Below, one piece after another: positions 12,237-51,962 of a DNA stretch of 64,000 nucleotides (positions within the stretch are counted from its first letter, which is position 1; the number at the start of each line of letters is the position of its first letter). The notes under the pieces are model-generated. The model did no database searches and had not been told where the DNA came from. It saw only the letters and a list, made by a program, of their open reading frames with translations. The translations under genes and the position numbers were made by a program. This DNA comes from Microlunatus sagamiharensis (GTDB lineage Bacteria; Actinomycetota; Actinomycetes; Propionibacteriales; Propionibacteriaceae): NCBI RefSeq assembly GCF_900105785.1, contig NZ_LT629799.1, positions 2,232,001 through 2,296,000 of the forward strand. Reading direction: 5' to 3'.

Positions 12237-12258
12237 CCACCCGGCCGTGGCCGGGTGG
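12237..12258 (-). terminator. Expression-platform hairpin of the TPP riboswitch
   Basis: CCACCCGGC-CGTG-GCCGGGTGG is a 9-bp perfect stem between the TPP aptamer and the ribosome-binding site of the S-component gene. It probably acts as the ligand-dependent terminator; no U-run follows. Confidence 0.6.
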
Positions 12259-12264
12259 CGAGCT

Positions 12265-12354
12265 CTCGACTCCCTACGCCGGTGCGAGCCGGATCAGGTT
12301 CGAGGGTCTGCGGATCTGCCGCACTCTCAGCGCCCTCTCGGCGCTCCCCTGTCG
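12265..12354 (-). ncRNA. TPP riboswitch (THI element)
   Basis: On the minus strand the conserved THI blocks appear in order: GGGAGCGCC, GCTGAGAGTGCGG, ACCCTCGAACCTGATC and GTAGGGAGTC. These are the pyrimidine- and pyrophosphate-sensing helices of the TPP aptamer. It controls the downstream ECF transporter genes, which should be shut off when thiamine pyrophosphate is plentiful. The rest of the 12355-12525 gap must carry divergent promoters; an A+T-rich patch at 12425-12455 is the likely place. Confidence 0.92.
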
Positions 12355-12525
12355 TCGTCGCCACCCTAGCGCCGGGCCGGACCTGCTGGGTACCGCCGTC
12401 CGGGCCCGCTCCGAGCGAGCCGTACGATCTTTCTTGCACAAGTTGACTAAGTACGTCGGCCTCCTCGGGGAGGTCGACCGGACCGACGGGCCGACGAGGG
12501 TCCGCCGACGACGAAGGGACCGCCC

Positions 12526-39054: not shown

Positions 39055-39627
39055 TCAGAGCGCGGAACCGTCACCCAGCTGGTGGTACGCCCGGTCGTGG
39101 TAGACGAGCGGCGCCGTGGCTCCGGGCTGCGCGGACTCGAGCACGCGCACCAGCACGAGGTAGCTGGAGCCGGCCGGGATGCGCTGGACGACCTCGCCCC
39201 GCACCCAGGCGGGAGCGTCGTCGAGGACGGGCTCCCCGGTCTCGAGCCGGTGCCAGCCCACGCCGGCGAACCGGTCGACCCCGCGGGTGGCGAAGCGGGC
39301 CGAGACGTCGACCTGCTCGGCGCCGAGGAAGTTCACGGTCAGCGTCGTGGCCTCCGACAGCGTCGGCCAGGCCGACGACGTGCCCGCGATGGAGAACGCG
39401 AGCAGCGGCGGCTCGGCGGACACCGAGATCACCGAGGTGGCGGTGAAGCCGACCGGGCGCTCGCCGTCGGCGAGGGCCACGATGGCCACGCCGGCCGGGT
39501 GGCGGCGGAAGATCGCCTTGAAGGTGTCGGCCGCGACGGGCGCGGGCACGTCGGCGACGGGCGCCGGGGCGACCTCGGTCAGCGGGGTCGTCGGCAGGCC
39601 GTGGCGGGTGCCGGGGTCGGCGGTCAT
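39055..39627 (-). CDS. Flavin reductase family protein
   Basis: A 190-residue flavin reductase-like, FMN-binding split-barrel protein. FKAIFRRHPAGVAIVALADGERPVGFTATSVISVSAEPPLLAFSIAGTSS is the conserved FMN-binding core; NFLGAEQVDVSARFAT follows. Such proteins provide FMNH2 to two-component monooxygenases. It is the last gene of the SAM-riboswitch operon, overlapping the FMN-reductase gene by ATGA, so it probably serves the two luciferase-like monooxygenases upstream. Confidence 0.9.
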   Translation of the reverse strand: MTADPGTRHGLPTTPLTEVAPAPVADVPAPVAADTFKAIFRRHPAGVAIVALADGERPVGFTATSVISVSAEPPLLAFSIAGTSSAWPTLSEATTLTVNFLGAEQVDVSARFATRGVDRFAGVGWHRLETGEPVLDDAPAWVRGEVVQRIPAGSSYLVLVRVLESAQPGATAPLVYHDRAYHQLGDGSAL

Positions 39628-40187
39628 GAGGTCCTCTTCTCAGGCGTCGCGGTCCCGAGCAGCGCAGCGACGAGCGGCCCGGCCTCGTCGGCCCACCGGG
39701 CCGCGAGGTCGTCGAGGTCACCGAGCTGGGACTCGGTGACGGCAAAGGGTCGGGTGGGCGCGAGCGCGCCCAGCTCGACCAGGAGCGGGCGGAGCAGGTG
39801 CTCGGCCACGAAGGCGTGGGCCGGGCTGGCGGAGACGGTGACGGGCACGACCAGCGTGCCCTTCAACCCGCCGCCGGGGTAGCGGTCGACGAAGGCCTTG
39901 AGCAGGCCGGTGTAGCTGGCCTTGTAGACCGGCGTGGCCACCACGACCACGGCGGCCCCGGCCACGGTCGCGGCGGCCCGGTCGGCGTCGGGCGCCTCGG
40001 GGGCGAAGAGCTGCTGCGCGACGTCGGCGAGCTCGACCTCGGTGACCGGACCGGACAGCCCGGCCCGCGCCGCGACCTGCTCGGCCAGCGTGCGCGCGAC
40101 GAGCAGCGTCCGCGAACCGCGCCGCGGGTTGCTCGACAGCGCGACGACCTCCGTACGGGGCTGCGGGCCCACGGTCTCGGTGCTCAC
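39624..40187 (-). CDS. NADPH-dependent FMN reductase, SsuE/MsuE-like
   Basis: A 187-residue flavodoxin-fold reductase. VVALSSNPRRGSRTLLVARTLAEQVA and VVVATPVYKASYTGLLKAFVDRYP are the FMN phosphate-binding and family signature regions of SsuE-type enzymes that reduce FMN for sulfonate monooxygenases. The GTG start overlaps the upstream monooxygenase stop. A second, unrelated flavin reductase follows, so the operon encodes two reductases for two monooxygenases. Confidence 0.9.
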   Translation of the reverse strand: MSTETVGPQPRTEVVALSSNPRRGSRTLLVARTLAEQVAARAGLSGPVTEVELADVAQQLFAPEAPDADRAAATVAGAAVVVVATPVYKASYTGLLKAFVDRYPGGGLKGTLVVPVTVSASPAHAFVAEHLLRPLLVELGALAPTRPFAVTESQLGDLDDLAARWADEAGPLVAALLGTATPEKRTS

Positions 40188-41578
40188 GCGTCCACCCTCG
40201 CCGTCATGGCCGAGGGCACCGGGAGCGGGTCCAGCCCGAGGTGGTCGCGCAGCGTGGTCCCTTCGTACGCGGTGCGGAAGGACCCGCGCTCCTGCAGCAG
40301 CGGCACGACCTCGTCGACGAAGCGGTCGAGCCCGCCCGGGGTGACGTGCGGGACGAGGATGAACCCGTCGCAGACGTCCTCCTGCACGAAGTGGTCGATC
40401 TGGTCGGCGATGGTCCGCGCCGAGCCGACGAAGTTCTGCCGGTTCGTCGTCTCGACGATCAGCTCGCGCAGCGAGAGGTGCTCGGCCTCGGCCTGGGCGC
40501 GCCACTCGCGCGCGGTCGAGACCGGGTCCTTGTGCATGCGCACGCTGGCGCGTCCCTTGCTGATGAGCTCGTCGCTCACCACGGGGTCGAAGGACGGCGG
40601 CGGGCCGTCGGGGTCGAACCCCGACAGGTCGGTGTTCCACAGCTGCTCGGCGAGCTTGATCGCCGTCGCCGGGCTGACCTGCTGGAAGCGCACCTCACGG
40701 GCCAGCTCCTCGGCCTCGGCGTCGGTATCGCCGAGCGCGAAGGTCGACGCCGGCAGCACGACCAGCTGGTCGGGCCGGCGCCCGTACTTCTCGAGCCGCC
40801 CCTTCACGTCGGAGTAGAACGCGCGCCCGGCGTCGTACGTGCCGTGGCGGGTGAAGATCGCGTTGGCAGTGGCCGCCGCGAACTCGCGCCCCTCCTCGGA
40901 GTCGCCGGCCTGGAAGATCACCGGGCGGCCCTGCGGGCTGCGCGGCGTGCTGAAGGCGCCGGCGATGTCGAAGTGCTGGTCGTGGTGGGCGAACGTGCCG
41001 ACCTCGGGCCGGAGGAGGAACTCCCCCGTCTCGGCGTCCGCGACGATCTCGTCGCCGCGCCAGGAGTCGAACAGCTCGAACGCGGTGTCGAGGAAGTGCT
41101 GCGCGCGGGAGTAGCGCTCGTCCTGCGGCAGGAAGCCGCCGCGGCGGAAGTTCTCGCCGGTGAAGGCGTCCCACGACGTGACGACGTTCCACGCCGCACG
41201 CCCGGCCGACAGGTGGTCGAGCGTCGCGAACTGGCGCGCGACCTCGTACGGCTCGTTGAACGTCGAGTTGATCGTCCCCGCGAGGCCGAGCCGCTCGGTC
41301 ACCGCGGCGAGCGCCGCCAGCACCGTGAAGGTGTCCGGCCGGCCGACGACGTCGAGGTCGTAGATCTGGCCGCCCTGCTCGCGCAGGCGCAGACCCTCGG
41401 CGAGGAAGAAGAAGTCGAACAGCCCGCGCTCGGCCGCCTGCGCCAGGTGGCGGAACGACGAGAAGTCGATGTGGCTGCCCGCGGCCGGGTCGCTCCAGAC
41501 GGTCGTGTTGTTGACGCCCGGGAAGTGGGCGGCGAGGTGGACCTGCTTGCGGGGCCTGCCCGCGGTGCTGCCGGCCAT
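40184..41578 (-). CDS. LLM-class flavin monooxygenase, NtaA/SnaA/DszA family
   Basis: A 464-residue FMNH2-dependent monooxygenase. HLAAHFPGVNNTTVWSDP, FFFLAEGLRLR, GTINSTFNEPYEVARQFATLDHLSAGRAAWNVVTSWDAFTGENFRRGG and VIFQAGDSEEGREFAA are diagnostic of the NtaA/DszA branch, which oxidises nitrilotriacetate, sulfones or S-substituted cysteines (YxeK/YtnJ type). In a SAM-controlled operon the sulfur substrates are most likely. It is coupled to both neighbours by 1- to 4-base overlaps. Confidence 0.9.
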   Translation of the reverse strand: MAGSTAGRPRKQVHLAAHFPGVNNTTVWSDPAAGSHIDFSSFRHLAQAAERGLFDFFFLAEGLRLREQGGQIYDLDVVGRPDTFTVLAALAAVTERLGLAGTINSTFNEPYEVARQFATLDHLSAGRAAWNVVTSWDAFTGENFRRGGFLPQDERYSRAQHFLDTAFELFDSWRGDEIVADAETGEFLLRPEVGTFAHHDQHFDIAGAFSTPRSPQGRPVIFQAGDSEEGREFAAATANAIFTRHGTYDAGRAFYSDVKGRLEKYGRRPDQLVVLPASTFALGDTDAEAEELAREVRFQQVSPATAIKLAEQLWNTDLSGFDPDGPPPSFDPVVSDELISKGRASVRMHKDPVSTAREWRAQAEAEHLSLRELIVETTNRQNFVGSARTIADQIDHFVQEDVCDGFILVPHVTPGGLDRFVDEVVPLLQERGSFRTAYEGTTLRDHLGLDPLPVPSAMTARVDA

Positions 41579-42780
41579 CAGTGGGCTCCCGTCGTGGCGT
41601 AGCGGTTGGCCGGGCGCTCCAGCCCGAGGCGGTCGCGCAGCGTGCCGTCGTCGTACGCGGTCCGGAACGCCCCGCGCCGCTGCAGCTCGGGGACGAGGCC
41701 GTCGACGATCGCGTCCAGGTCCTGCGGCAGCGCCGCGGGCCGCAGCCGGAAGCCGGTCAGTCCGGACTCGGCTCGGGCGAGCAGCAGGTCGGCCAGTCCC
41801 TGCGGGGTGCCGACGAAGACCTCGGCGTCGCTCGTGTACGGCCGACCGGCCCACGCCTCGAGCTGCGCCCAGCGCGCGTCGGCGCCGCCCTGGTCGTCGT
41901 CGAGGAGCACGACGAGGTCGCCGAACACGTGGTCGGTCCCCTCGCGCCCCGCCTCACGCCGGCCGGCGACGATCTCCTCGACCTGCGCGGTCGCGGTGGC
42001 GTTGTCGTGCGGGGTGATCAGGACGACGTCCGCGGAGCGCGCGGCGAACGTCCGCGGCACCTCGGCGTGCGCGAGGGCGACGACGACCGGCTGGCCCTGC
42101 GGCGGGCGCGGCGTGATGGACGGGCCCCGCACCGAGAACGAGCGCCCGGAGAAGTCGACGTAGTGCAGCTTGTCGCGGTCGACGAAGCGGCCGGTCGCGA
42201 CGTCGCGGATCTCCGCGTCGTCCTCCCAGCTGTCCCAGAGGCGGCGGACGACCTCGACCGCCTCTCCGGCCTCCTCGAAGAGGTCACGGACCAGCGCCTG
42301 GGTCGCGACGTCGTCCGGGTCCCCGAGCAGGTCGCCCCACGCCTCGCGGCGACCGAAGTGGGCGACCTCGTCCGGGCGGGCGGACACCTGCGGGCGCCAG
42401 CCGCCGCGGCCCTGCGAGACGACGTCGAGGGTGGCGATGGCCTTCGAGACGTGGAAGGGCTCGGTGTGGGTGACGGTCGTGGTCGGCACGAGGCCGACGC
42501 GGCTGGTCACGGGCGCGACGCGGGCGGCGACGAGCACGGCGTCGAGGCGCCCGCGGACCTCGTCGGTGCGGTGGTCGGGCCCCGTGCGGGAGGTGCTCTG
42601 GAGAGAGAGCCCGTCCTCGAACGTCACGAGGTCGAGCAGGCCCTCCTCGGCCCGGCGGGCCAGGTCGACCCAGTAGCCGGCCGTGAGCAGCTCGCGCGGA
42701 CGGGCCGTGGGCAGGCGCCAGGCGGTGGGGTGCCAGCCGGCGCCGTCGAGGGCGACGGCGAGGTGCAGCGGCCGGGTCAT
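41578..42780 (-). CDS. LLM-class flavin monooxygenase, second copy
   Basis: A 400-residue luciferase-like monooxygenase distinct from the NtaA-type neighbour. LHLAVALDGAGWHPTAWR, DLVTFEDGLSLQ, TVTHTEPFHVSKAIATLDVVSQGRGGWRPQVS and TPRPPQGQPVVVALAH follow the family layout; the end TAYDDGTLRDRLGLERP parallels the neighbour's TAYEGTTLRDHLGLDPLP, suggesting ancient duplication. It shares the flavin reductases of the operon. The substrate is unknown. Confidence 0.88.
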   Translation of the reverse strand: MTRPLHLAVALDGAGWHPTAWRLPTARPRELLTAGYWVDLARRAEEGLLDLVTFEDGLSLQSTSRTGPDHRTDEVRGRLDAVLVAARVAPVTSRVGLVPTTTVTHTEPFHVSKAIATLDVVSQGRGGWRPQVSARPDEVAHFGRREAWGDLLGDPDDVATQALVRDLFEEAGEAVEVVRRLWDSWEDDAEIRDVATGRFVDRDKLHYVDFSGRSFSVRGPSITPRPPQGQPVVVALAHAEVPRTFAARSADVVLITPHDNATATAQVEEIVAGRREAGREGTDHVFGDLVVLLDDDQGGADARWAQLEAWAGRPYTSDAEVFVGTPQGLADLLLARAESGLTGFRLRPAALPQDLDAIVDGLVPELQRRGAFRTAYDDGTLRDRLGLERPANRYATTGAH

Positions 42781-43738
42781 CGGGTGCTCCTGACGTGCTC
42801 GTCGTGCTGGTCGCCGTCGGCCCCGGGGAGGAACGACGGGGTGCCGCCGATGCTCGCCCAGCGCGTGCTGACGTGGAACGCCGGCAGCTCGGCGAGCCAG
42901 GCTGCGTACCGCGCCAGGTGGCGGAAGGCGGTCAGCGGCGGTCCGACGCGCGTGGCGTCGTACCGGGCCAACGTCACCCACAACTGGATGTCGGCCTCGG
43001 TGATTCCGTGCCCGACGAGGAAGCCGCCGTCGGCGAGGCGGTCGTCGAGCGCGTCGAGGGCGGCCAGCAGCGCCGAGCGGGCCTTCGCGGCACCCGGTCC
43101 CTGCCCCGACGCGCGGCCGAGGCCCTGGTTGACGGCCGGACCGAGCCAGGCGTCGAGCGCGTCGATCTCGGCCCGGTGCTCGCGCGGGTAGGTGTCGACG
43201 CCGGGCGAGCGGTGGCCGGGGAACTGCGTGGCCACGTCGACCCCGAGCGTCGCGTAGTCGTTGCTGACGATCCGGTGGGTCTGCGTGTCCCACAGCACCG
43301 GGACGTTCCCTGTCACACCCAGGGGGGACGACCCCCCTGACCCCCGGAACTGCGCGAACCGTCGAACCCGGGCTCGGTCGCCTCGTACGCCTCGCGCAGC
43401 AGGGTGAAGCCGTTGACCGGATCCGGACCGTCCGTCTCCCGGAACGCCCACCCACGCCCGTCGCGCACGTCGTCGACGTAGTGCGTCGGCACCACGTCGG
43501 ACAGCCCGTTGACCGCGAGCTCCAGGACCACGCGCTGCGACCAGGGGCAGGTCCAGCTGGCGTACAGGTGGTAGCGCCCGGCCTCGGCCTGGAACCCGCT
43601 GGACCCGTCGGCGCTCAGCCGGCCGGTGAAGCGGTAGAGCGGGCGGGGGTCGTCGGGGCGCTGCGGGCTGCGGTAGGGCCCGTACGCGGCGAGGTCGGGC
43701 GGGCTGGCGTACGCGGCCCGGGGCGGGGAGAGGGTCAT
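42777..43738 (-). pseudogene. Glutathionyl-hydroquinone-reductase-like GST, disrupted by insertion
   Basis: Two frames together encode an ECM4/YqjG-type glutathione-transferase-like protein. The N-terminal frame (from 43738) carries YASWTCPWSQRV, the active-site Cys motif, and ends near LREAYEATEPGFDG. The C-terminal frame starts at NVPVLWDTQTHRIVSNDY and has the helical domain GHGITEADIQLWVTLARYDA. Between them are about 41 extra bases (43317-43357) that shift the frame; they contain an 8-bp GC hairpin. Both ends remain coupled to neighbours by ATGA, so the gene was an intact operon member until recently. Confidence 0.82.
43320..43339. repeat. GC palindrome inserted in the GST-like gene
   Basis: CAGGGGGG-ACGA-CCCCCCTG is a perfect 8-bp hairpin within the roughly 41-base insertion that breaks the gene. 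It looks like a small mobile or slipped palindrome. Confidence 0.75.
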
Positions 43739-45162
43739 CGGTCGGCTCCGGTCGGAAGGGTGGCGCAGGGGCTGGTCGGTGATGAAGCGCTGCCGAGGGG
43801 GTCGGTCAGGCTCTCGAGGCCGGACCAGTCAGGCGCGGGACGGTCGTCGGGTGCGGGTCGACAGCTGCCGCCGTCGGAGGCGTAGGTCCAGCGCGGGCCC
43901 TCGGCGAGGAGCTGGTCGAGCGCGGAGAGGAGCCGGTCGACGTCGGCCGAGCCCGACCCCACCCCGAAGGACGCGCGGACCGCACCGTCGCCGCGGCCGA
44001 GCCCGAAGCGGGCCAGCAGCGGGTGCGCGCAGAAGCGCCCGTCGCGGACGCCGACGCCGTGCTCGGCCGAGAGGTACGCCGCGACCTGGGCGGAGCGCCA
44101 GCCGGGCACGACGAAGCTCACGACCCCGACCGCGTCGGGGGCGTCGGACCAGAGGCGCAGCGGCTCGATCCCCCGCCCCTCGAGCCCGGCCACCAGACGG
44201 TCGCGCAGCGCGGCCTCGTGCTCCCGGACCCGGTCGAGACCCGTCTCGGCCAGCGTCCGCAGCGCCTCGGCGAGGGCCAGGGCGCCGAGCACCGCGGGGG
44301 TGCCGCCCTCGTGGCGCTCCGGGCTCGGCGCCCAGGTGGTGGAGGTCGTGGTGACCTCGCGGACCGCGCCGCCGCCGGCCAGGTGGGGCTCGGCGGCGTC
44401 GAGCCAGTCGCGGCGTCCGACGAGGGCGCCCACGCCGTACGGGGCGTAGACCTTGTGGCCGGAGAAGGCGACGTAGTCGATCCCGGTCGCGGCCAGGTCG
44501 ACCCCGCGGTGCGGCAGCAGCTGGGCGGCGTCGACGGCGAGCCGGGCGCGGTGGCCGTGGGCGAGGTCGGCGAGACGGCGGAGGTCGGGGACCTCGCCGG
44601 TGACGTTCGAGGCGCCCGTCACGGCGAGCAGCGCGGCCGGGGACCGGGCCAGCTCGGCCGCGAGCAGGGCCTCGGTCTCGACGAGCGTCGACGCGACGCG
44701 GACCACGCGGGCACCGTGCGCGCGGCTCGGTGAGCGCCACGGCAGCAGGTTCGCGTGGTGCTCGACGTCCAGCACCACGACGTCGCCGGGCACCGCGCTG
44801 CTCAGCAGGTTGAGCGCGTCGGTGGTGTTGCGGGTGAAGACGACCACGTCGTCCGCACGGGCGCCGACGGACGTGCCGACCGTCTCCCGCGCCCGCTCGT
44901 ACAGCGCGGTGCTGAGCTGGGAGAGGTAGCCGGCCCCGCGGTGCACGCTGGCGTACGCGGGCAGGGCGGCGGCGACGTGGTCGGCGACCCGCTGGAGCGC
45001 GGGGGCGCTGGCGGCGACGTCGAGGTGGACCGACCGGGCCTGGCGGCCGCCGACGAGCGGCACGACCCAGCCGGCGCCGACGGTGGGCAGCAGCGGTGCG
45101 ACCGTGCGGTCGAGCCGCTCGGTCAGAGCGGCTGCGGCGTCGGAACGGGTGAGAACGGTCAT
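43735..45162 (-). CDS. Class-V PLP-dependent aminotransferase-fold enzyme, cysteine-desulfurase-like
   Basis: A 475-residue fold-type I PLP enzyme. FTRNTTDALNLLSSAVPGDVVVLDVEHHANLLPWR, VTGASNVTGEVPDL, AVDAAQLLPHRGVDL and YVAFSGHKVYAPYGVGALVG (PLP Lys in SGHK) are all conserved; GVRDGRFCAHPLL supplies a Cys near the position of the SufS active site. It probably releases sulfur or acts as a C-S lyase. GGAGGG precedes the ATG. It is first in the operon, about 50 bases after the SAM-IV-type riboswitch. Confidence 0.9.
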   Translation of the reverse strand: MTVLTRSDAAAALTERLDRTVAPLLPTVGAGWVVPLVGGRQARSVHLDVAASAPALQRVADHVAAALPAYASVHRGAGYLSQLSTALYERARETVGTSVGARADDVVVFTRNTTDALNLLSSAVPGDVVVLDVEHHANLLPWRSPSRAHGARVVRVASTLVETEALLAAELARSPAALLAVTGASNVTGEVPDLRRLADLAHGHRARLAVDAAQLLPHRGVDLAATGIDYVAFSGHKVYAPYGVGALVGRRDWLDAAEPHLAGGGAVREVTTTSTTWAPSPERHEGGTPAVLGALALAEALRTLAETGLDRVREHEAALRDRLVAGLEGRGIEPLRLWSDAPDAVGVVSFVVPGWRSAQVAAYLSAEHGVGVRDGRFCAHPLLARFGLGRGDGAVRASFGVGSGSADVDRLLSALDQLLAEGPRWTYASDGGSCRPAPDDRPAPDWSGLESLTDPLGSASSPTSPCATLPTGADR

Positions 45163-45213
45163 CGGGGACCCTCCGTGGGGTTCAGGACCCCGTGGGACGG
45201 GGCCGCGCTTGCC

Positions 45214-45231
45214 GGTGCCGGAACCGGCACC
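45214..45231 (-). promoter_or_regulatory. Hairpin after the left SAM-IV aptamer
   Basis: GGTGCCGG-AA-CCGGCACC is an 8-bp perfect stem 7 bases beyond the aptamer on the minus strand. It may be part of the aptamer's 3' pseudoknot region or the expression platform. A second small stem (CCCCGT/ACGGGG, 45189-45203) lies closer to the ribosome-binding site. Confidence 0.55.
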
Positions 45232-45237
45232 AGCCGT

Positions 45238-45314
45238 GTCGTCACCCGGGGCACCCCACCGCGGAGGAGGGTTGCCGGCCAGCAAGCCGGGGCTTGACGC
45301 TGGCGCTCGTGACA
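45238..45314 (-). ncRNA. SAM-IV-type riboswitch upstream of the sulfur operon
   Basis: On the minus strand: GTCACGAGCGCCAGCG, TCAAGCCCCGGC, GGCCGGCAACCCTCC, GCGGTGGGGTGCCCCGGG and GTGACGAC. The outer helix pairs GTCAC with GTGAC, and the S-box core (GAGC... AAGCCC... GGCAACC... GGGTGCC) is intact. The compact form with a following hairpin is the actinobacterial SAM-IV arrangement. It should turn off the PLP-enzyme/monooxygenase operon when SAM is abundant. Confidence 0.88.
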
Positions 45315-45319
45315 GGAGC

Positions 45320-45325
45320 ACTATA
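45320..45325 (-). promoter_or_regulatory. -10 element for the left riboswitch transcript
   Basis: TATAGT on the minus strand ends 6 bases before the aptamer, in a short A+T-rich patch. No good -35 is visible. The rest of 45326-45553 shows nothing I can name. Confidence 0.45.
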
Positions 45326-45553
45326 ACTCGGTATTTCCTAGTAGGGCACTTCGGTACAGGATCCGGACCGGTCGGCGCTCACGACCAGCGCAGCAGCACC
45401 GACAGGCGGGCCTCGATCTCGGCCGGGCACGGCCGCTCGCGTGCTGCGGCCGGGCGGGTCCCTCCCGCCTCGGCAGGCACGGCGGTCCCGGAGGCGCGCC
45501 CGGGGCCGCGCCCGGCCGGCGGTGCGACCGGTGCGGGCGTACGGGGCCCCACC

Positions 45554-47545
45554 TCAGGACCTCCGCCCGGCGCCGACGGGCTCGCTGTCGTCGACGACCG
45601 CCGGGGTGAGGGCCAGCAGCGCCCGGGCGACGTGGTCGTTGAGCCGGTGGACGGGCGCGTTGGTGCAGGGCCGGGCGAAGGCCGCCGCCTTGACCGTCGT
45701 GTGCATGCCGAGGGCGAAGCGGCGCTCGGCCACCGTGCCGTCCGCCCGCACGAGCCGCTGGGCACCGTCGGTGCTGAGCTGGCCGGTGTCGACGGGCTCG
45801 CCGTCGGCGGTCACGAGCAGCTGCGAGGCGACCTCCCCGCGGGCGGCGAGCGTCGCCAGCAGCGGGTCCTCGACCCGTGCGAGGTCGAAGGCCGGCAGCG
45901 TCGCGTCGACGAGGGAGCGCGCCGCGACCTCGCCGGGCACCGTCGTCGAGCGGGCCACGAAGACGCCGCGCTCCGGGTCCACCCCGACCTCGAGGCCGCC
46001 GCCGAGGAACGACACAACCCCGGCCTCCTCCAGCGCCAGCAGCTGCTCGAGCCGGTCCGGCGGCGGGCCGCTGGCCCAGAAGCTGAAGAAGCCCATGAAC
46101 CAGCCGTAGAAGTCCCGCAGCAGCGAGCGCGGGTCCATCAGCGGCGAGGCGAGCGCGGCCCCGATCACCGGCATCACGGCGAGGAAGCCGTGGAAGGCGC
46201 CGAGGTCGGCGCTCCACGTGGGGTCGGCCCGGCGCTCCAGGTCGTCGCGCACGTAGCGGCGCAGCACGCGGCTCAGCTCGTCGCGGTCCGCTACCCGCAC
46301 GTCCCGCAGCGGGCGGTCCACGACGGCCGGGTCGAAACGGTCCGCGGGGTCGGGGACGACCTCGGCGATCCAGCGCGCGTACGCCTCGCTCCCCCACTCG
46401 AGCGCGGCGAAGGTGGCGGCGAACTCCTCCCAGGGCACGGTGATGCGGCCGGGGTGGCCCAGGCCGAGCTCGACGTAGGACGCCCAGGTCACCTCACGCC
46501 CGACCAGCGGCCACACGTCGGCGAGGAAGTCGATCGGCTCGCCACGCCGCAGCAGGGCGCCGACGGCCTCCGCCGTGCAGAAGCGGGTGGCCGCCGGCTT
46601 CGGGGCGCGGAGGCGGTACATCGGCTTGGAGTGGTACGGCACCCCGCGGCGCGAACCGACGTGCAGGCGCGGCTCGCGGCCGGAGGGGACGTACCGGAGC
46701 CGGCCCTGACGCTCGGGGACGAGGCTCGACGCCTCGTCGCTCGACCCGTCGGCCTGGCCGTCGAGGCGCTCGAACACCCCGCCGCGGCCCTCGGTGACGA
46801 GGACGAGGAAGTCCACGAATCCGAGCCCGAAGCCGCGGACGAGGATGTCCTCCCCGGCCGGCACCGCCGAGAGGTCCAGGTCGCCGGCGTAGCCGGGCGG
46901 GAGGTAGTGCAGCCCGTGCTCGACGGCGAGGTCCGCGAGCGCCGCGAAGGGCGGTGCGGGGGCGACGTCGACGTGGCTGTTGGTGAGGACGACCGCGTCC
47001 ACGGCCAGCAGCTCGCCGTCCTCGAGGACGACGACCTCGCGCCCGCCCCCGTCGTCGCCCGCGGAGAGCAGGTCCACGGCTCGCTGGGGGTGCGTGTGCA
47101 CGGTGACGCCCTCGGGCAGCCGGCCCAGCGTCTCGTCGACGGCCCAGCCGAGGTAGGCGCTGGCCAGCCGCCGGGTGGGGAACTCCAGCGGTCCGACGGT
47201 CGCCGCCTCGGCCGCCAGCTCGGGGTCGGACAGGTGACGCCCGTGCGTGAGGCACCACTCGGCCATCGTGGGCCCGGGTGTTATCGGGCCGGCCATGACG
47301 ACGCTCTCGTCGACGAAGGCCGTCAGGTCCTCGGTCGTGGTGTTGAGGCGCAGGAGCTGCGACTGCGCGTCGCGCCACACACGACCGCCCCCCGGCGGGA
47401 ACGGGTCGACCAGGTGGATCTCGACCGGCCCGTGGGCGACCTCGGCGGCGTTCGTCACCAGGCGCTCGAGCAGGCCCGCACCGCGCGGCCCCACCCCGAC
47501 CACGGCGAGCACGAGGCTCCGCCGGTCGTCGCTGTTCGCTGGCAC
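45554..47545 (-). CDS. FAD/NAD(P)-binding protein
   Basis: A 663-residue FAD-dependent oxidoreductase-like protein. VLAVVGVGPRGAGLLERLV is the N-terminal dinucleotide motif of the HI0933/PF13454-type group; LNTTTEDLTAFVDE, AVVLTNSHVDVAP and RGFGLGFVDFLVLVTEGRGG are conserved there. GGAGAG lies 6 bases before the GTG start. It sits between the ABC transporter and the monooxygenase operon on the same strand and may oxidise the imported sulfur compound or a related metabolite; this is inference. Confidence 0.83.
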   Translation of the reverse strand: MPANSDDRRSLVLAVVGVGPRGAGLLERLVTNAAEVAHGPVEIHLVDPFPPGGGRVWRDAQSQLLRLNTTTEDLTAFVDESVVMAGPITPGPTMAEWCLTHGRHLSDPELAAEAATVGPLEFPTRRLASAYLGWAVDETLGRLPEGVTVHTHPQRAVDLLSAGDDGGGREVVVLEDGELLAVDAVVLTNSHVDVAPAPPFAALADLAVEHGLHYLPPGYAGDLDLSAVPAGEDILVRGFGLGFVDFLVLVTEGRGGVFERLDGQADGSSDEASSLVPERQGRLRYVPSGREPRLHVGSRRGVPYHSKPMYRLRAPKPAATRFCTAEAVGALLRRGEPIDFLADVWPLVGREVTWASYVELGLGHPGRITVPWEEFAATFAALEWGSEAYARWIAEVVPDPADRFDPAVVDRPLRDVRVADRDELSRVLRRYVRDDLERRADPTWSADLGAFHGFLAVMPVIGAALASPLMDPRSLLRDFYGWFMGFFSFWASGPPPDRLEQLLALEEAGVVSFLGGGLEVGVDPERGVFVARSTTVPGEVAARSLVDATLPAFDLARVEDPLLATLAARGEVASQLLVTADGEPVDTGQLSTDGAQRLVRADGTVAERRFALGMHTTVKAAAFARPCTNAPVHRLNDHVARALLALTPAVVDDSEPVGAGRRS

Positions 47546-47676
47546 GTCTCTCCTCGGGGCTGGTCGGTCGCGCGCTGGGACGTTGTCTACAGGATTACTC
47601 GGGAACGCCGTGTGGTCCACGTCTGTTCCGTCACGGTGCTGTCGGGCTCCGCCCCGCCCCCCGAGCCCTCGTCGCC

Positions 47677-47808
47677 GACCACTGGTCACGGGCCAGGGAA
47701 GGTGGGGGCCTCAGGGGGCAGGGCGAGCACGACTCCTCCCCTCCTGACCAGTGGTCACTTCTGGTCACGACACGCCGGTCGGGACGACCACTGGTGACCA
47801 CTGGTCGG
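47677..47808. repeat. Cluster of GACCACTGGTC-type palindromes
   Basis: Copies: GACCACTGGTC (47677-47687), TGACCAGTGGTCA (47745-47757), and the tandem GACCACTGGT-GACCACTGGTC (47786-47806); a partial TCTGGTCACGA is at 47760-47770. They occupy the 291-base gap between the lipoprotein gene and the FAD/NAD(P)-binding gene, both minus strand. They may be operators of the FAD gene or a terminator array. No gene is seen in the gap. Confidence 0.65.
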
Positions 47809-47836
47809 CCAGCAGGGTGGGCGGCGGAGCCGGACA

Positions 47837-48847
47837 TCACGCGTTGTCCAGGGGTAGGCCGGGCGGGTTGACCTCGGAGGTCTTCACGGCCTCGTTCTGG
47901 AGGTTGTACGCCTTCAACCACTGGTCGTACTGCCCGTCCTTGATCAAGACGTCGATCGCGTCGGCGACGGGCTGGGCGAGCCCGCTGTCCTTCTTCGTCG
48001 TCGCCGCGATCAGACCCTGGAGCGAGTCGCCAGCGCCCGAGTAGGTGCCGGCCGTGCGCGTCGGTGTGCTCGTGCCCGCCGACTGCTGGTCGGAGTAGGC
48101 GATGCTCGGGTTGGGGCCGAAGTAGGCGTCGATGCGACCGGACGCCAGCGCCAGGTAGGTGCTGTTGTTGTCCTTGTAGTAGCGGACCTCGAAGTCCTGG
48201 CCCTCGGCGCGGACCTTCTTCTGCCACTCGAGCAGGATCTTCTCCTGGTTGGTGCCGGAGCTGACGGCGACGGTCTTCCCGGCCAGGGCGCGGTAGTCGC
48301 CGTCGAACGTCCAGGGGTCGTCCTTCCGGACGGCGAAGGCGAGGTTGTCGTCGCGGTAGGAGGCGAAGTCGTACTTCTGCTTGCGCTCCTCGGTCACCGT
48401 GATGTTGGAGAAGCCGACGTCGAGCTGGGCGCTGTCGAGGCGGACGAACATGTTCTCCCAGGCGCTGTTCTGCAGCTCCGGCTTGAGGCCGAGCGTCGCC
48501 GCGACCAGGCGGCCGAGGTCGGGCTCCGCACCGGTCAGGGTCTTGTGGTCGTCACCGACGTAGGCCAGCGGCGGGAAGCCGGCGGGCAGCGCACCCACGC
48601 CGATGACGAGCGTCCCGCGCTCCTTGACCTTCGCCGGCAGCGCGTCGTGCAGGGCCTGCTGCGTCGGCACGCTGATCTCGGTGCGCGTCGCGGTCGTCGT
48701 GTTGTCGGCGACGACGACGGTGGTGTTGCCGTTCGCGTCCGTGCTGGGCGCGCCGGTGGTCGCGGCGTCGCTCGTGGAGCAGGCGGCGAGGGCGAGGAGG
48801 GTGACCGCGGAGGCGGCCGCGAGGGCTCGGCGTACGGGGATGGGCAT
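47837..48847 (-). CDS. Amino-acid ABC transporter substrate-binding lipoprotein
   Basis: A 336-residue secreted lipoprotein. The lipobox is LLALAACS with lipid-modified Cys23. A linker of about 35 residues precedes a class-3 solute-binding domain: GTLVIGVGALPAGFPPLAYVGDD, LTGAEPDLGRLVAATLGL, LDSAQLDVGFSNITVTEERK and DLNNSTYLALASGRIDAYFG-like text. The family binds polar or sulfur amino acids such as cystine. It is the third gene after the right-hand SAM riboswitch. Confidence 0.9.
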   Translation of the reverse strand: MPIPVRRALAAASAVTLLALAACSTSDAATTGAPSTDANGNTTVVVADNTTTATRTEISVPTQQALHDALPAKVKERGTLVIGVGALPAGFPPLAYVGDDHKTLTGAEPDLGRLVAATLGLKPELQNSAWENMFVRLDSAQLDVGFSNITVTEERKQKYDFASYRDDNLAFAVRKDDPWTFDGDYRALAGKTVAVSSGTNQEKILLEWQKKVRAEGQDFEVRYYKDNNSTYLALASGRIDAYFGPNPSIAYSDQQSAGTSTPTRTAGTYSGAGDSLQGLIAATTKKDSGLAQPVADAIDVLIKDGQYDQWLKAYNLQNEAVKTSEVNPPGLPLDNA

Positions 48848-48909
48848 GGCTGTCTCCTGGAGGTGGCGTCGCGGGGGTGCCGCGGGAGGCGTACGGGTCG
48901 GGGTGCGGT

Positions 48910-49719
48910 TCAGCGCACGCGGCTGAGGAACGCCGCGGTGCGGGGGTGCTGCGGATGGTCGAGGACCTCGTCGGGCGGTCCCTGCTCGACGACACGGCCG
49001 GCGTCGAGGAAGACGACGGTGTCGGCCACCTCGCGGGCGAAGCCGATCTCGTGGGTGACGATGATCATGGTGGCGCCGGCGGCCGCGAGGTCCTTGATCA
49101 CCGCGAGGACCTCGCCGACGAGCTCGGGGTCGAGCGCCGAGGTCGGTTCGTCGAACAAGATCAGCTGCGGGCGCAGGGCGAGCGCGCGGGCGATCGCCAC
49201 CCGCTGCTGCTGGCCACCCGAGAGCTGCCGGGGGTAGGCGTCCGCCTTGTCGGCCAGGCCCACCCGCGCGAGGAGCGCGCGGGCCTCGGCGTGGACCTCC
49301 GCCTTGTCGCGGCCGAGGGCGGCGACGGGCGCCTCGACCACGTTGCCCAGCACGCTCAGGTGCGGGAAGAGGTTGAAGCCCTGGAAGACGAAGCCGATCC
49401 GGGCCCGCTGCCGCAGGATCGCCCGCTCGCTCAGCTCGTGCAGCCGGCCGTGCGCGACGCGCACGCCGACCAGCTCGCCGTCGACGCGGACGTAGCCGGC
49501 GTCGAGCTTCTCGAGGTGGTTGACGGCGCGCAGCAGCGTCGACTTGCCCGAGCCGGAGGGCCCGAGGACGACGGTGACCGTGCCCCGCGCGACGTCGAGG
49601 TCGACCTCGTGCAGGACCTGGTGGGCGCCGAAGGACTTGCTCGCCCCGCGCACCTGCACCACCGGTGTCGCGCTCGGCACGACCCGCTGGGCCGGGGCGT
49701 CCGCGGCGGTGGCGCTCAT
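48910..49719 (-). CDS. Amino-acid ABC transporter ATP-binding protein
   Basis: A 269-residue ATPase of the polar amino acid (HisP/GlnQ/TcyN) class. Walker A GPSGSGKST, Q-loop FQGFNLFPHLSVLGNV, signature LSGGQQQRVAIARAL, Walker B LILFDEPTSALDP and H-loop IIVTHEIGFA are all intact. The ATG overlaps the permease stop. It energises import with the neighbouring permease and lipoprotein. Confidence 0.94.
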   Translation of the reverse strand: MSATAADAPAQRVVPSATPVVQVRGASKSFGAHQVLHEVDLDVARGTVTVVLGPSGSGKSTLLRAVNHLEKLDAGYVRVDGELVGVRVAHGRLHELSERAILRQRARIGFVFQGFNLFPHLSVLGNVVEAPVAALGRDKAEVHAEARALLARVGLADKADAYPRQLSGGQQQRVAIARALALRPQLILFDEPTSALDPELVGEVLAVIKDLAAAGATMIIVTHEIGFAREVADTVVFLDAGRVVEQGPPDEVLDHPQHPRTAAFLSRVR

Positions 49720-50720
49720 CGGGCGACCCCCCGTCGCGTCCGGACCGCCGAGAGGATCCGCTGGGCCCGGGTCCGGCCGGCGAGGCGGTCGACGCCGCGG
49801 GCGAAGCGCTGCTCGACGAAGTACTGGAAGACCGACAGCACGCTGGTGAGGATCACGTACCAGACCGTGGCGACCATGAGCAGCGGGATGACCTGGCCGC
49901 TGTTGGTGCTGGCCTGCGTCTCGACCTGGCCGAAGAGGTCGAGCAGCGAGGTGATGTAGACGACCGAGGTGCCCTTGAGCAGCCCGATCAGCTGGTTGGC
50001 GTACGAGGGCAGGATCGCGCGCATCGCCTGGGGCAGCACGATGCGGGTGAAGCGGCGGTGGCGCGGCAGCCCGAGGGCGGCCGCAGCCTCGCGCTGGCCC
50101 GGGTCGACCGAGATGATCCCGGAGCGGACGATCTCGGAGGCGTACGCGGCCTCGTTGAGGCTGAGGCCGATGATCGCCGCGGCCTCGTAGCTGAGCAGCC
50201 GGGTCGCGTCGATGCTGAACAGCTGCGGGCCGAACGGCACCGACAGCCCGAGGCTCGGGTAGAGCGCGGTCGCGTTGGCCAGGAACAGCAGCAGCACGAT
50301 CAGCGGGATCGAGCGGAAGACCCAGACGTAGACCCAGCTGACCGACTGCAGCACCGGGCTGGCCGACAGCCGCATCAGCGCCAGCACGACCCCGGCCGCG
50401 AAGCCGATCACCGCGCTCCACGCCGTCAGCTTGAGCGTGACGAGCAGGCCCTCGAGGATGATCGGCTGGAAGAACCAGTAGCCGAAGGCGTCCCACTGGT
50501 AGGCCGGGTTGGAGGCGAGGCCGCTGACGACCTGCGCGAGCAGGAGGAGGACGACGACGCTGGCCACCCAGCGCCAGGGCCGGCGCAGCGGGACGACGCG
50601 GGAGGAGACCAGCGCCTCGACGGGGTCGTCCCCGCGGACGGCAGCGGGTCGGCCGCCAGGTCGGGCGGTGTCGGGCGGGTGGTCGGCGGCGGGCGGTCGC
50701 CGTGCGGTGCTCAGGCTCAT
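49716..50720 (-). CDS. Amino-acid ABC transporter permease
   Basis: A 334-residue HisM/GlnP-type permease. A 50-residue cytoplasmic N-terminus precedes about six helices: VVVLLLLAQVVSGLA, LLVTLKLTAWSAVIGFAAGVVLALM, VFRSIPLIVLLLFLAN. The EAA-loop is EIVRSGIISVDPGQREAAAALGLPRHRRF. Only one permease is present, so it likely works as a homodimer. Start at the ATG with CGAGG upstream; an ATG 11 codons earlier is possible. It is the first gene after the right riboswitch, with a 290-base leader. Confidence 0.92.
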   Translation of the reverse strand: MSLSTARRPPAADHPPDTARPGGRPAAVRGDDPVEALVSSRVVPLRRPWRWVASVVVLLLLAQVVSGLASNPAYQWDAFGYWFFQPIILEGLLVTLKLTAWSAVIGFAAGVVLALMRLSASPVLQSVSWVYVWVFRSIPLIVLLLFLANATALYPSLGLSVPFGPQLFSIDATRLLSYEAAAIIGLSLNEAAYASEIVRSGIISVDPGQREAAAALGLPRHRRFTRIVLPQAMRAILPSYANQLIGLLKGTSVVYITSLLDLFGQVETQASTNSGQVIPLLMVATVWYVILTSVLSVFQYFVEQRFARGVDRLAGRTRAQRILSAVRTRRGVAR

Positions 50721-50881
50721 CGGACCTCGGGGCGTGCGGGAGCGTCGGCGCACGGGCCGATCGCTGCGGGTGGGGAGGTTCAGGGGCTGCGTGCGCGCAG
50801 CCGGCGTCCGCGCCGGCAGGCGGGGACGGGAGTCAGGAGGCGGGTCGGCGCGGTCGTGGGACGCTCGCGCCTACGTCTCGC

Positions 50882-50989
50882 TCAGCGACAGCAGGTCGGG
50901 CGTCGACAGCCCGGCATGCCGCCGGCACGCCGGGGCGCGGGAGGGCTGGCGCGGTGCGGCAGCGGTGCTGCCCGGTGCGTGGTCGTCAT
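50882..50989 (-). CDS. Putative Cys-rich leader peptide (uORF)
   Basis: A 35-codon frame between the SAM-IV aptamer and the permease gene. It ends CRRPTCCR, with three Cys in the last eight residues; an internal ATG at 50917 gives the 11-residue MPGCRRPTCCR. Actinobacteria are known to use short cysteine-rich leader peptides to attenuate sulfur genes. The ribosome-binding site is weak and there is no independent proof of translation, so this is tentative. Confidence 0.3.
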   Translation of the reverse strand: MTTTHRAAPLPHRASPPAPRRAGGMPGCRRPTCCR

Positions 50990-51010
50990 GCGGCGGACCT
51001 GTCCGTCGGG

Positions 51011-51027
51011 ACCCCCGGCGGGGGTCG
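51011..51027 (-). terminator. Hairpin following the right SAM-IV aptamer
   Basis: GACCCCC-GGC-GGGGGTC is a perfect 7-bp stem with a 3-base loop, 28 bases past the aptamer on the minus strand. With the nearer stem GCAGGG/CCCTGC (51035-51052) it could form the terminator/antiterminator pair. Confidence 0.55.
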
Positions 51028-51054
51028 GCGCTTGCAGGGCTGCTCCCCTGCCGG

Positions 51055-51133
51055 GTCGTCACCTGGGGCACCCCACCGCTCGTGCGAGGGTTGCCGATCA
51101 GCCAGCCAGGGCTTGTCGCTGATGCTCGTGACC
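51055..51133 (-). ncRNA. SAM-IV-type riboswitch upstream of the amino-acid ABC transporter
   Basis: On the minus strand: GGTCACGAGCATCAGCGACA, AGCCCTGGC, GATCGGCAACCCTCG, GAGCGGTGGGGTGCCCC and AGGTGACGACC. The outer helix is GGTCAC/GTGACGACC and the core matches the left copy with compensatory changes (for example CATCAGC/GCTGATC against CGCCAGC/GCTGGCC). It should reduce transporter expression when SAM is plentiful. The rest of 50721-51233 contains only the leader elements listed. Confidence 0.9.
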
Positions 51134-51141
51134 TGGGGAGG

Positions 51142-51171
51142 ACGTTAGGACGCATCGCGGGTTCCTGTCAA
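51142..51171 (-). promoter_or_regulatory. Promoter of the right riboswitch transcript
   Basis: On the minus strand a perfect -35 TTGACA (51166-51171) and -10 TAACGT (51142-51147) are 18 bases apart. Transcription would begin a few bases before the aptamer at 51133. Confidence 0.65.
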
Positions 51172-51233
51172 ATCCTGGTGGGTAACTAGGGAATAGCGGA
51201 ACAGGTCGGGTGGGCAGGGTGTTCGATGGTGGC

Positions 51234-51962
51234 GTGACCAGCTCCCCCACCACCGCCCGCCCGGCGGCCGGCAGCCCCGCCCACACGCTCGACGCCGCGA
51301 CGTGGTCGGCGCTGACCGGACCGCACGCGCACTTCGCGATCGGCACCGACCGAGCCCGCCGCTACCCGGCCGACGTCGCGCCCTTCGCCGCGCTCGAGTC
51401 GACCGACGACCCCGCCGCCTGGGCGGACCTGCGCGGGCTGTACGCGACGGGCGAGGTCGCGGCCCTGGCGGTCCCGGCCGGCACCGCCTGGTCGCCCCCG
51501 GACGGCTGGGAGCCGGACGGTGCGATCCCCGGCGTCCAGCTCGTGTCGACCGCGGCCCTGCGCTCCTTCCCCGACGAGGAGGCCGTCCGGCTCGGCCCGG
51601 ACGACGTCGCCGAGGCGACCGACCTGGTGGCGCGGACCGAGCCCGGCCCCTTCCGGCCGCGCACGATCGAGCTCGGCACCTACCTCGGCCTGCGTCGCGA
51701 CGGCCGGCTCGTCGCCATGGCCGGCGAGCGGCTCCACCCGGACGGCTGGACCGAGATCAGCGCGGTCTGCACCGACCCTGCGTACCGGCGCCAGGGCCTG
51801 GCCACCGGGCTGGTGCGCGCCGTGGCCGACCTGGTCCGCGAGCGCGGCGACGTCCCGTTCCTGCACACGAGCGCGGCGAACACCCGCGCGATCCGGCTCT
51901 ACCTGGCCATGGGCTTCGACCTGCGCAGCGAGGTGCAGTTCGCGGCGGTGCGCGCCGTCTAG
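51234..51962 (+). CDS. GNAT-family N-acetyltransferase (FR47-like)
   Basis: A 242-residue acetyltransferase. The C-terminal GNAT domain has GERLHPDGWTEISAVCTDPAYRRQGLATGLVRAVADLVRERGDVPFLHTSAANTRAIRLYLAMGF, with the acetyl-CoA loop RRQGLA. The N-terminal half is of the FR47 type. Two GTG codons (51210, 51234) are possible starts; I prefer the second. It is divergent from the sulfur block and probably unrelated to it. Confidence 0.85.
   Translation: MTSSPTTARPAAGSPAHTLDAATWSALTGPHAHFAIGTDRARRYPADVAPFAALESTDDPAAWADLRGLYATGEVAALAVPAGTAWSPPDGWEPDGAIPGVQLVSTAALRSFPDEEAVRLGPDDVAEATDLVARTEPGPFRPRTIELGTYLGLRRDGRLVAMAGERLHPDGWTEISAVCTDPAYRRQGLATGLVRAVADLVRERGDVPFLHTSAANTRAIRLYLAMGFDLRSEVQFAAVRAV

Follow-up and report, generated by a model that had tools for sequence, protein, structure and literature searches.

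The stretch of DNA analysed here, called the window, comprises 64,000 nucleotides of the GC-rich actinobacterium Microlunatus sagamiharensis (NZ_LT629799.1, positions 2,232,001 to 2,296,000) and contains, at 39055-51171, a locus for which a first-pass annotation had proposed uptake and oxidation of organosulfur compounds under the control of S-adenosylmethionine (SAM) riboswitches. In order of transcription on the minus strand, a SAM-IV element (riboswitch 2) is followed by a short open reading frame (ORF), by the permease, ATPase and substrate-binding protein (SBP) of an ATP-binding cassette (ABC) transporter and then by a FAD/NAD(P)-binding protein (FAD protein). Downstream lie a second SAM-IV element (riboswitch 1), a class-V pyridoxal phosphate (PLP) enzyme, a glutathione S-transferase (GST)-like gene, two luciferase-like monooxygenase (LLM) genes, LLM1 and LLM2, and the flavin reductases FMNred and FlavRed (Table 1). 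With the gene starts chosen by us, consecutive reading frames from class V through FlavRed overlap by 1-4 bases, in agreement with the annotation's description of a fully coupled operon. Its gene content holds as listed except that a 44-bp insertion breaks the GST-like gene, and its interval, correct for the listed genes, leaves just outside a divergent GCN5-related N-acetyltransferase (GNAT) that belongs to the set, homologues being present in 16 of 99 loci of relatives.

Table 1. Features of the locus in window coordinates
Feature	Coordinates	Strand	Match or remark
FlavRed, flavin reductase	39055-39627	-	PF01613 Flavin_Reduct domain, 124.1 bits
FMNred, NAD(P)H FMN reductase, SsuE/MsuE-like	39624-40187	-	PF03358, 81.7 bits (longer frame including FMNred)
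LLM2, NtaA/CmoJ-type FMNH2-dependent monooxygenase	40184-41578	-	TIGR03860, YtnJ/CmoJ chains
LLM1, NtaA-fold protein lacking the FMN-region residues of its family	41578-42780	-	putative partner subunit
GST-like gene, two overlapping frames	42777-43738	-	N part 43313-43738, C part 42777-43316; PF13410, 41.3 bits (C part)
44-bp insertion in GST-like gene	43306-43349	-	absent from same-genus locus L037; shifts frame
Class-V PLP enzyme, cysteine-desulfurase-like	43735-45162	-	PF00266, 275.5 bits
SAM-IV riboswitch 1, 38 nt before class-V gene	45200-45314	-	Rfam RF00634, 115.8 bits
FAD/NAD(P)-binding protein	45554-47545	-	PF13454, 122.5 bits
GACCASTGGTC palindrome cluster, upstream of FAD gene	47677-47926	.	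candidate operator
SBP, SBP_bac_3 type	47837-48847	-	PF00497, 86.5 bits
ABC ATPase	48910-49719	-	PF00005, 111.7 bits
ABC permease, polar amino-acid type	49716-50720	-	PF00528, 80.5 bits
Short ORF, 35 codons, ending ...GCRRPTCCR	50882-50989	-	33 nt downstream of riboswitch 2; candidate leader peptide for cysteine
SAM-IV riboswitch 2, before short ORF and permease	51023-51133	-	Rfam RF00634, 91.9 bits
GNAT acetyltransferase, FR47-like, divergent from transporter unit	51210-51962	+	Pfam FR47, 75.8 bits; candidate N-acetyltransferase

Both SAM-IV elements span the complete Rfam model (positions 1-116 of 116) with scores above the gathering score of 38, on the same strand and within 7-16 bases of where the annotation had placed them; a search of the whole 4.4-Mb genome found no third. 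Pfam matches of permease, ATPase and SBP likewise bear out an amino-acid-type transporter downstream of SAM-IV. Both riboswitches would probably shut off a gene set for the import of a sulfur compound and for C-S cleavage. The Shine-Dalgarno sequence of the class-V gene, GGAGGG just upstream of 45162 on the minus strand, is complementary to CCCTCC within its own SAM-IV aptamer, and the lowest-energy fold of 45140-45340 pairs the two. This fold, with a z of only -1.57, ignores the known structure of the aptamer and revealed no clear expression platform for riboswitch 1, and no direction of switching was drawn from it.

The conservation of the locus was followed with LLM1 as query against 296 genomes of the class. 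At E 1e-40, 81 genomes matched, 64 of them closely (best E up to 1.5e-74, a cut-off set by us). LLM1 and LLM2 occurred together in 63 genomes and each alone in one, with cut-offs set after the match lists had been seen; the pair is thus carried by about a fifth of the sampled class. Neighbourhoods were collected from 20 of the matching genomes and from the 80 top-ranking among at least 582 relatives (named loci, weighted to Streptomyces), giving 100 loci of which 99 were distinct, and their genes were identified by tblastn with identity cut-offs. Near LLM1 there were LLM2 (96 of 99), an LLM of the MsnO8 type (51), another LLM type (28) and a GST-like gene (24). FMNred was near in 5 loci; looser protein clustering gave FMNred 15, FlavRed 10, FAD protein 6 and class V 5. 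The gene caller found LLM1 in 97 loci and missed it in three; LLM1 and LLM2 were adjacent in 90 of those 97, 71 in the order LLM1-LLM2 and 19 reversed, and the seven non-adjacent loci, two of which are the same stretch, come from Frankia, Pseudofrankia or their relatives.

The two LLM proteins differ markedly in the region that binds flavin. LLM2 (464 residues) exceeds the curated cut-off of TIGR03860 (407.3 against 279.7), whereas LLM1 (400 residues) stays under it at 257.4. The FMN contacts of BdsA, according to the excerpted text of PMC5819316, are V137, S139, H156, R159, Y160 and L230. A joint alignment of 95 LLM2 and 98 LLM1 rows, each including the window protein, showed seven FMN-region residues (N131, V133, R155, Y156, Q223, G225 and S227) to be invariant in all 95 LLM2 rows. 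Among the LLM1 rows 76 keep none of them, 20 keep one and two keep two: the N is mostly R or Q, the V is Q, R or K, R-Y is mostly L-F and Q-A-G mostly A-L-A, and the equivalents of BdsA V137, R159, Y160 and the L230 loop are not kept. An insertion of LLM1 near R-Y makes the mapping there less certain, and the pairwise alignment with BdsA agrees with it. The Trp that precedes N (W130) is kept in 48 of 98 rows. The structural model of LLM1 has the NtaA fold (mean predicted local distance difference test, pLDDT, of 83.8), and its segments 186-211 and 213-223 are well conserved yet have a pLDDT <50, as would fit ordering by a partner, among other possible causes. Because LLM1 has lost the FMN-region residues and co-occurs with LLM2, we infer that the two form a two-chain monooxygenase in which LLM1, without the standard FMN site, looks like an FMN-less partner. 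Two different LLM chains are already known to share a complex in NtfO1-NtfO2 (PDB 7E36), in the excerpts of PMC8027225 a solved heterodimer with FMN docked in NtfO2; that enzyme carries out polyketide hydroxylation, and its chain A is named SsuD-like, in contrast to the NtaA-like LLM1. If LLM1 is indeed a flavin-less partner, proteins annotated simply as 'LLM class flavin-dependent oxidoreductase' are mis-described, and an assay with only one of the two chains may fail.

The link between the LLM pair and sulfur is provided by SAM-IV. Eight SAM-IV sequences served to build a covariance model, which replaced a loose regular-expression search, dropped because of its many unlikely matches, and which found the element in 18 of 100 LLM1 neighbourhoods (21 matches); five of these 18 loci had fed the model, all five first found by Rfam. 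Since the ~430 Mb of 59 genomes with LLM1 contain 78 SAM-IV sites (a minimum, given the strict filters), ~0.34 sites would be expected in the neighbourhoods against the 18 loci observed (Poisson P ~4e-25, not corrected for kinship). The locus seen in the annotation is thus real and linked to sulfur. Six of the 78 sites lay within loci already in the set and the other 72 were fetched separately. The targets of these 72 were assigned from similarity of sequence or from an N-terminal motif: class V follows at 45, a MetY-like gene at seven and a GST-like (c11) gene at two; eight carry a leader ORF with a DL..C motif, and the remaining ten, without leader, have no assigned target. Class V is therefore the ordinary SAM-IV target in relatives. 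The riboswitch also stands in unusual arrangements. In Ornithinimicrobium (L130, 9391-9700) two divergent elements separate an MsnO8-type LLM from LLM1, and in genome G046 a divergent pair near LLM1 lies between a class-V gene and an MsnO8-type LLM. Nakamurella leprariae (L135, genome G343) has nine elements, the most among 49 genomes searched. A longer, lower-scoring variant (~145 nt) precedes a GST-like (c11) gene on the strand opposite the LLM genes in L057, L059 and L038.

Where SAM-IV precedes permease or Opp genes in relatives, a short ORF ending like RAVDLLRVNSALC begins 17-35 bases further on, with the consensus end ...DLLRVxSALC before transporter genes (start codons taken from the longest frame). 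Seven of the eight sites with such an ORF lie before transporter or LLM genes and one before a gene of no assigned type; the gap is 16 bases before an MsnO8-type LLM and 39 in the unassigned case, and no DL..C leader was detected at the 52 class-V and MetY sites. In 22 of the 99 loci a related Cys-ended ORF (HIDLxRVAGALC) precedes the LLM pair itself. Actinobacterial cys operons have known cysteine leader peptides and, as far as the excerpts of PMC1262725 describe them, share the upstream short ORF ending in Cys codons; here, in contrast, the ORF is placed directly after a SAM-IV aptamer. If these ORFs act as leaders, the tandem of SAM-IV and leader would combine two inputs into a simple sulfur sensor and would readily serve to mark actinobacterial sulfur-scavenging operons. 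The short ORF of the window begins at +33, the relatives' leader position, and has three Cys codons among its last eight. In the same-genus genome G211 (L146, 6308-7521) a second SAM-IV is followed by a HVDLRRTASMAC leader, a 172-aa protein, which we take to be a cysteine dioxygenase, and a 133-aa protein, presumably rhodanese-like.

The transporter and the acetyltransferase bear on the kind of substrate. The permease matches the GltK and cystine-permease models under their cut-offs, and the best NCBIfam match of the SBP is a cystine SBP (110.9 bits, under the cut-off of 312). At the position where aligned solved amino-acid-binding chains have an Asp, which usually holds the amino group of the ligand, the SBP has G-P-N, and none of 32 aligned homologues has an acidic residue there; an N-acylated ligand is for this reason possible. 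GNAT homologues are complemented by a second GNAT type in 10 loci, either being present in 26, and 21 of these 26 also have an amino-acid-type transporter. In all, 27 of the 99 loci have this transporter type and three have both it and a peptide type. The combination of acetyltransferase, transporter and monooxygenase in one cluster, with the GNAT just beyond the interval and divergent, is that of yxe/ytm-type salvage.

The remaining enzymes are less constant. The class-V enzyme falls under the curated cut-off of TIGR01979 (SufS group; 281.7 against 475.1), and its RFCAHP keeps the C-terminal-loop Cys, which is catalytic in cysteine desulfurases, in alignment with THCAQP of 4w91 (SufS/CsdA structures). 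Class V as an enzyme specific to this route was rejected, given its place behind 45 of 72 SAM-IV sites and its rarity near LLM1 (4 of 99), and the annotation's proposal that sulfur release by the PLP enzyme is a step of the route fared poorly on the same counts. A cysteine desulfurase with SAM-IV upstream is described for Streptomyces lividans (SLIV_26975) in the excerpts of PMC8079986; SAM-IV followed by a class-V cysteine-desulfurase-like gene is shared with it, and the window differs in that class V is the first gene of an LLM operon and the transporter has another SAM-IV upstream. The FAD protein matches PDB 8cp2 with 279.1 bits over residues 11-645. This structure is L-aspartate N-hydroxylase (PMC10404684), so its relative in the window is a candidate N- or S-oxygenase that could perform a prior oxidation. 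FMNred scores 85.1 with TIGR03567, under the cut-off of 164.05. The same-genus locus L037 keeps GNAT, FAD protein, class V, GST, LLM1, LLM2 and both reductases. The transporter that lies between its LLM2 and FMNred is of the peptide type, and the search matched no genes of an amino-acid-type transporter in this locus. Its GST-like gene is a single open frame, shifted in the window by the insertion into two frames that overlap as GTGA. The insert has one copy in the genome at up to three mismatches, and a repeat element was rejected on this ground; the broken gene may be a pseudogene, a split gene or an assembly error.

Taken together, a SAM-controlled sulfur-scavenging locus, in which a GNAT and a two-chain LLM act on an S-substituted cysteine or its N-acetyl form, is the reading we moderately favour. 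The riboswitches, the gene content, the residue loss of LLM1, its co-occurrence with LLM2 and, in relatives, the association of SAM-IV with a Cys leader are computational results; we infer substrate, reaction steps, two-chain complex, direction of switching and leader function as follows. Low SAM, perhaps with low charged Cys-tRNA, would lead to synthesis of the transporter, whose cargo would resemble a sulfur amino acid; the best-fitting and most likely cargo is an S-substituted cysteine, free or N-acetylated. The GNAT would acetylate it unless already acetylated, and the FAD protein may provide an earlier S- or N-oxygenation. Both flavin reductases would feed FMNH2 to LLM2, a CmoJ-type monooxygenase that would cleave the C-S bond oxidatively, with LLM1 as its partner chain, the standard FMN site lost. 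Cysteine would be recovered, and the class-V enzyme could mobilise its sulfur.

A number of observations weigh against this proposal. SAM-IV was not matched by the covariance model in 82 of 100 neighbourhoods, 52 of 99 have neither transporter type at the thresholds used, and 23 have a peptide-type transporter. No M20 deacetylase lies in the window cluster, six M20 genes being elsewhere in the genome, and two own-genome M20 queries gave one weak match among the called proteins of the 100 neighbourhoods. No convincing M20 deacetylase was retained from them; the own-genome region L143, an M20 match near an LLM gene, held no further pathway part when compared with the neighbourhood proteins. The SAM-IV directly before LLM1 in L130 has no cysteine leader, and the window's short ORF lacks the DL..C motif, a scan of the window for H[VIL]DL forms being empty, so that it is only a candidate leader peptide. 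The Ser equivalent to BdsA S139 is still present in 68 of 98 LLM1 rows. The best solved relatives of LLM2 are the B. subtilis CmoJ/YtnJ chains (265.5 bits), a lead over NtaA (245.9) and BdsA (242.1) so small that homology leaves the substrate unfixed. Near LLM1, class V (>=45% identity) occurs in just 4 of the 99 loci, the FAD protein in 2 and FlavRed in 1; hence they are not core, and the neighbourhood counts give LLM1-LLM2 as the core, class V, FAD protein and reductases as lineage additions and the transporter as an exchangeable part.

LLM1 and LLM2 could instead be separate enzymes acting in sequence, much as CmoO sulfoxidises and CmoJ then cleaves the C-S bond, with an unusual mode of flavin binding in LLM1; we consider this possible and somewhat doubtful. 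In B. subtilis, according to the excerpts of PMC10863075, two flavoenzymes do act in sequence, which also takes the support from the annotation's argument that the route may be new because the second LLM is absent from the Bacillus operons. LLM1 moreover still has the fold, and many of its own positions are conserved. Its loss of the FMN-region residues across 98 rows speaks against such a catalytic role, as does the MsnO8-type LLM near LLM1 in 51 of 99 loci, which we assume to be the likelier counterpart of CmoO (presumably YtmO, an LLM protein of the ytm operon); gene calling in the window's cluster gave no LLM of this type. It is rather unlikely, too, that the pair cleaves another organosulfur compound (sulfone, sulfonate or thioether) or an aminopolycarboxylate, with the amino-acid-type transporter reflecting a different substrate class. 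The close NtaA and BdsA scores, the peptide-type transporters and SsuD-like LLMs near LLM1 (in 7 and 8 of 99 loci) agree with it; the recurring GNAT with amino-acid-type transporter (21 of 99) fits N-acetyl-cysteine chemistry better than sulfonates, and the association of SAM-IV with a cysteine leader speaks against a non-sulfur substrate. Two independent units, an ordinary actinobacterial pair of SAM-IV and class V lying by chance upstream of an LLM operon whose sulfur link is positional only, are improbable: the 45 of 72 SAM-IV sites before class V and the 4 of 99 loci with class V near LLM1 would suit them, and the overlapping frames from class V to FlavRed in the window, together with several loci in which class V is lacking and SAM-IV stands straight before a permease, Opp or LLM gene, do not.

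The proposed scavenging of an S-substituted cysteine by a GNAT and a two-chain LLM has its closest parallels in B. subtilis. There, in the excerpts of PMC10863075 and PMC12757645, S-alkylcysteine undergoes N-acetylation, sulfoxidation by CmoO, C-S cleavage by CmoJ, reduction and deacetylation. With this salvage, as excerpted in PMC10863075, the window shares a CmoJ-related NtaA-type monooxygenase, a flavin reductase and an acetyltransferase, and its locus may likewise act on an N-acetylated S-alkylcysteine. SAM-IV, class V, the relative of the FAD N-hydroxylase and the GST-like gene appear only in the window, where LLM1, without the FMN-region residues, is present instead of an evident CmoO and no M20 deacetylase is clustered. 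The Bacillus-like counterpart inferred in the first-pass annotation is accordingly supported in part: the CmoJ/YtnJ-like LLM2 and the flavin reductases stand, and the clustered deacetylase is missing. The yxe/scm pathway for S-(2-succino)cysteine, in the excerpts of PMC9706529 and PMC12757645, shares transporter, acetyltransferase and FMN monooxygenase; the window differs by its paired LLMs and two flavin reductases, and no ScmP-type deacetylase was found in its cluster. The top listings of searches in the open-licence PubMed Central literature yielded no description of the LLM1-LLM2 pair or of SAM-IV beside a Cys leader, and for Rhodococcus under desulfurization only an SsuD-type luciferase protein is mentioned among LLM/NtaA-related terms (PMC8557817). 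The new elements are the apparently flavin-less LLM partner and the tandem arrangement of SAM-IV and Cys leader. A bolder suggestion, which we hold only tentatively and as unlikely, is that in mycothiol actinobacteria a two-chain flavin monooxygenase with one flavin-less chain recovers cysteine from N-acetyl-cysteine conjugates, the mercapturates shed by mycothiol detoxification, uptake being gated by a tandem RNA element in which the riboswitch senses SAM and the leader peptide cysteine. Such an N-acylated substrate would be in keeping with an SBP that has no acidic residue where the amino group of the ligand is usually held, and the locus offers a way to test what becomes of cysteine conjugates in mycothiol bacteria.

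Further signals were noted in the window. A promoter scan of 45100-51300 gave no sigma-70-type site. The palindrome cluster upstream of the FAD gene, one copy of which lies inside the end of the SBP gene, holds five of the window's eight GACCASTGGTC matches (<=1 mismatch; 1.9 expected window-wide), three of the five exact. The sequence TGACCANTGGTCA occurs at 11 genome sites against 2 for the control, with three grouped at 3035956-3036059. Finally, a thiamine pyrophosphate (TPP) riboswitch is located at 12254-12360 of the window (64.8 bits).

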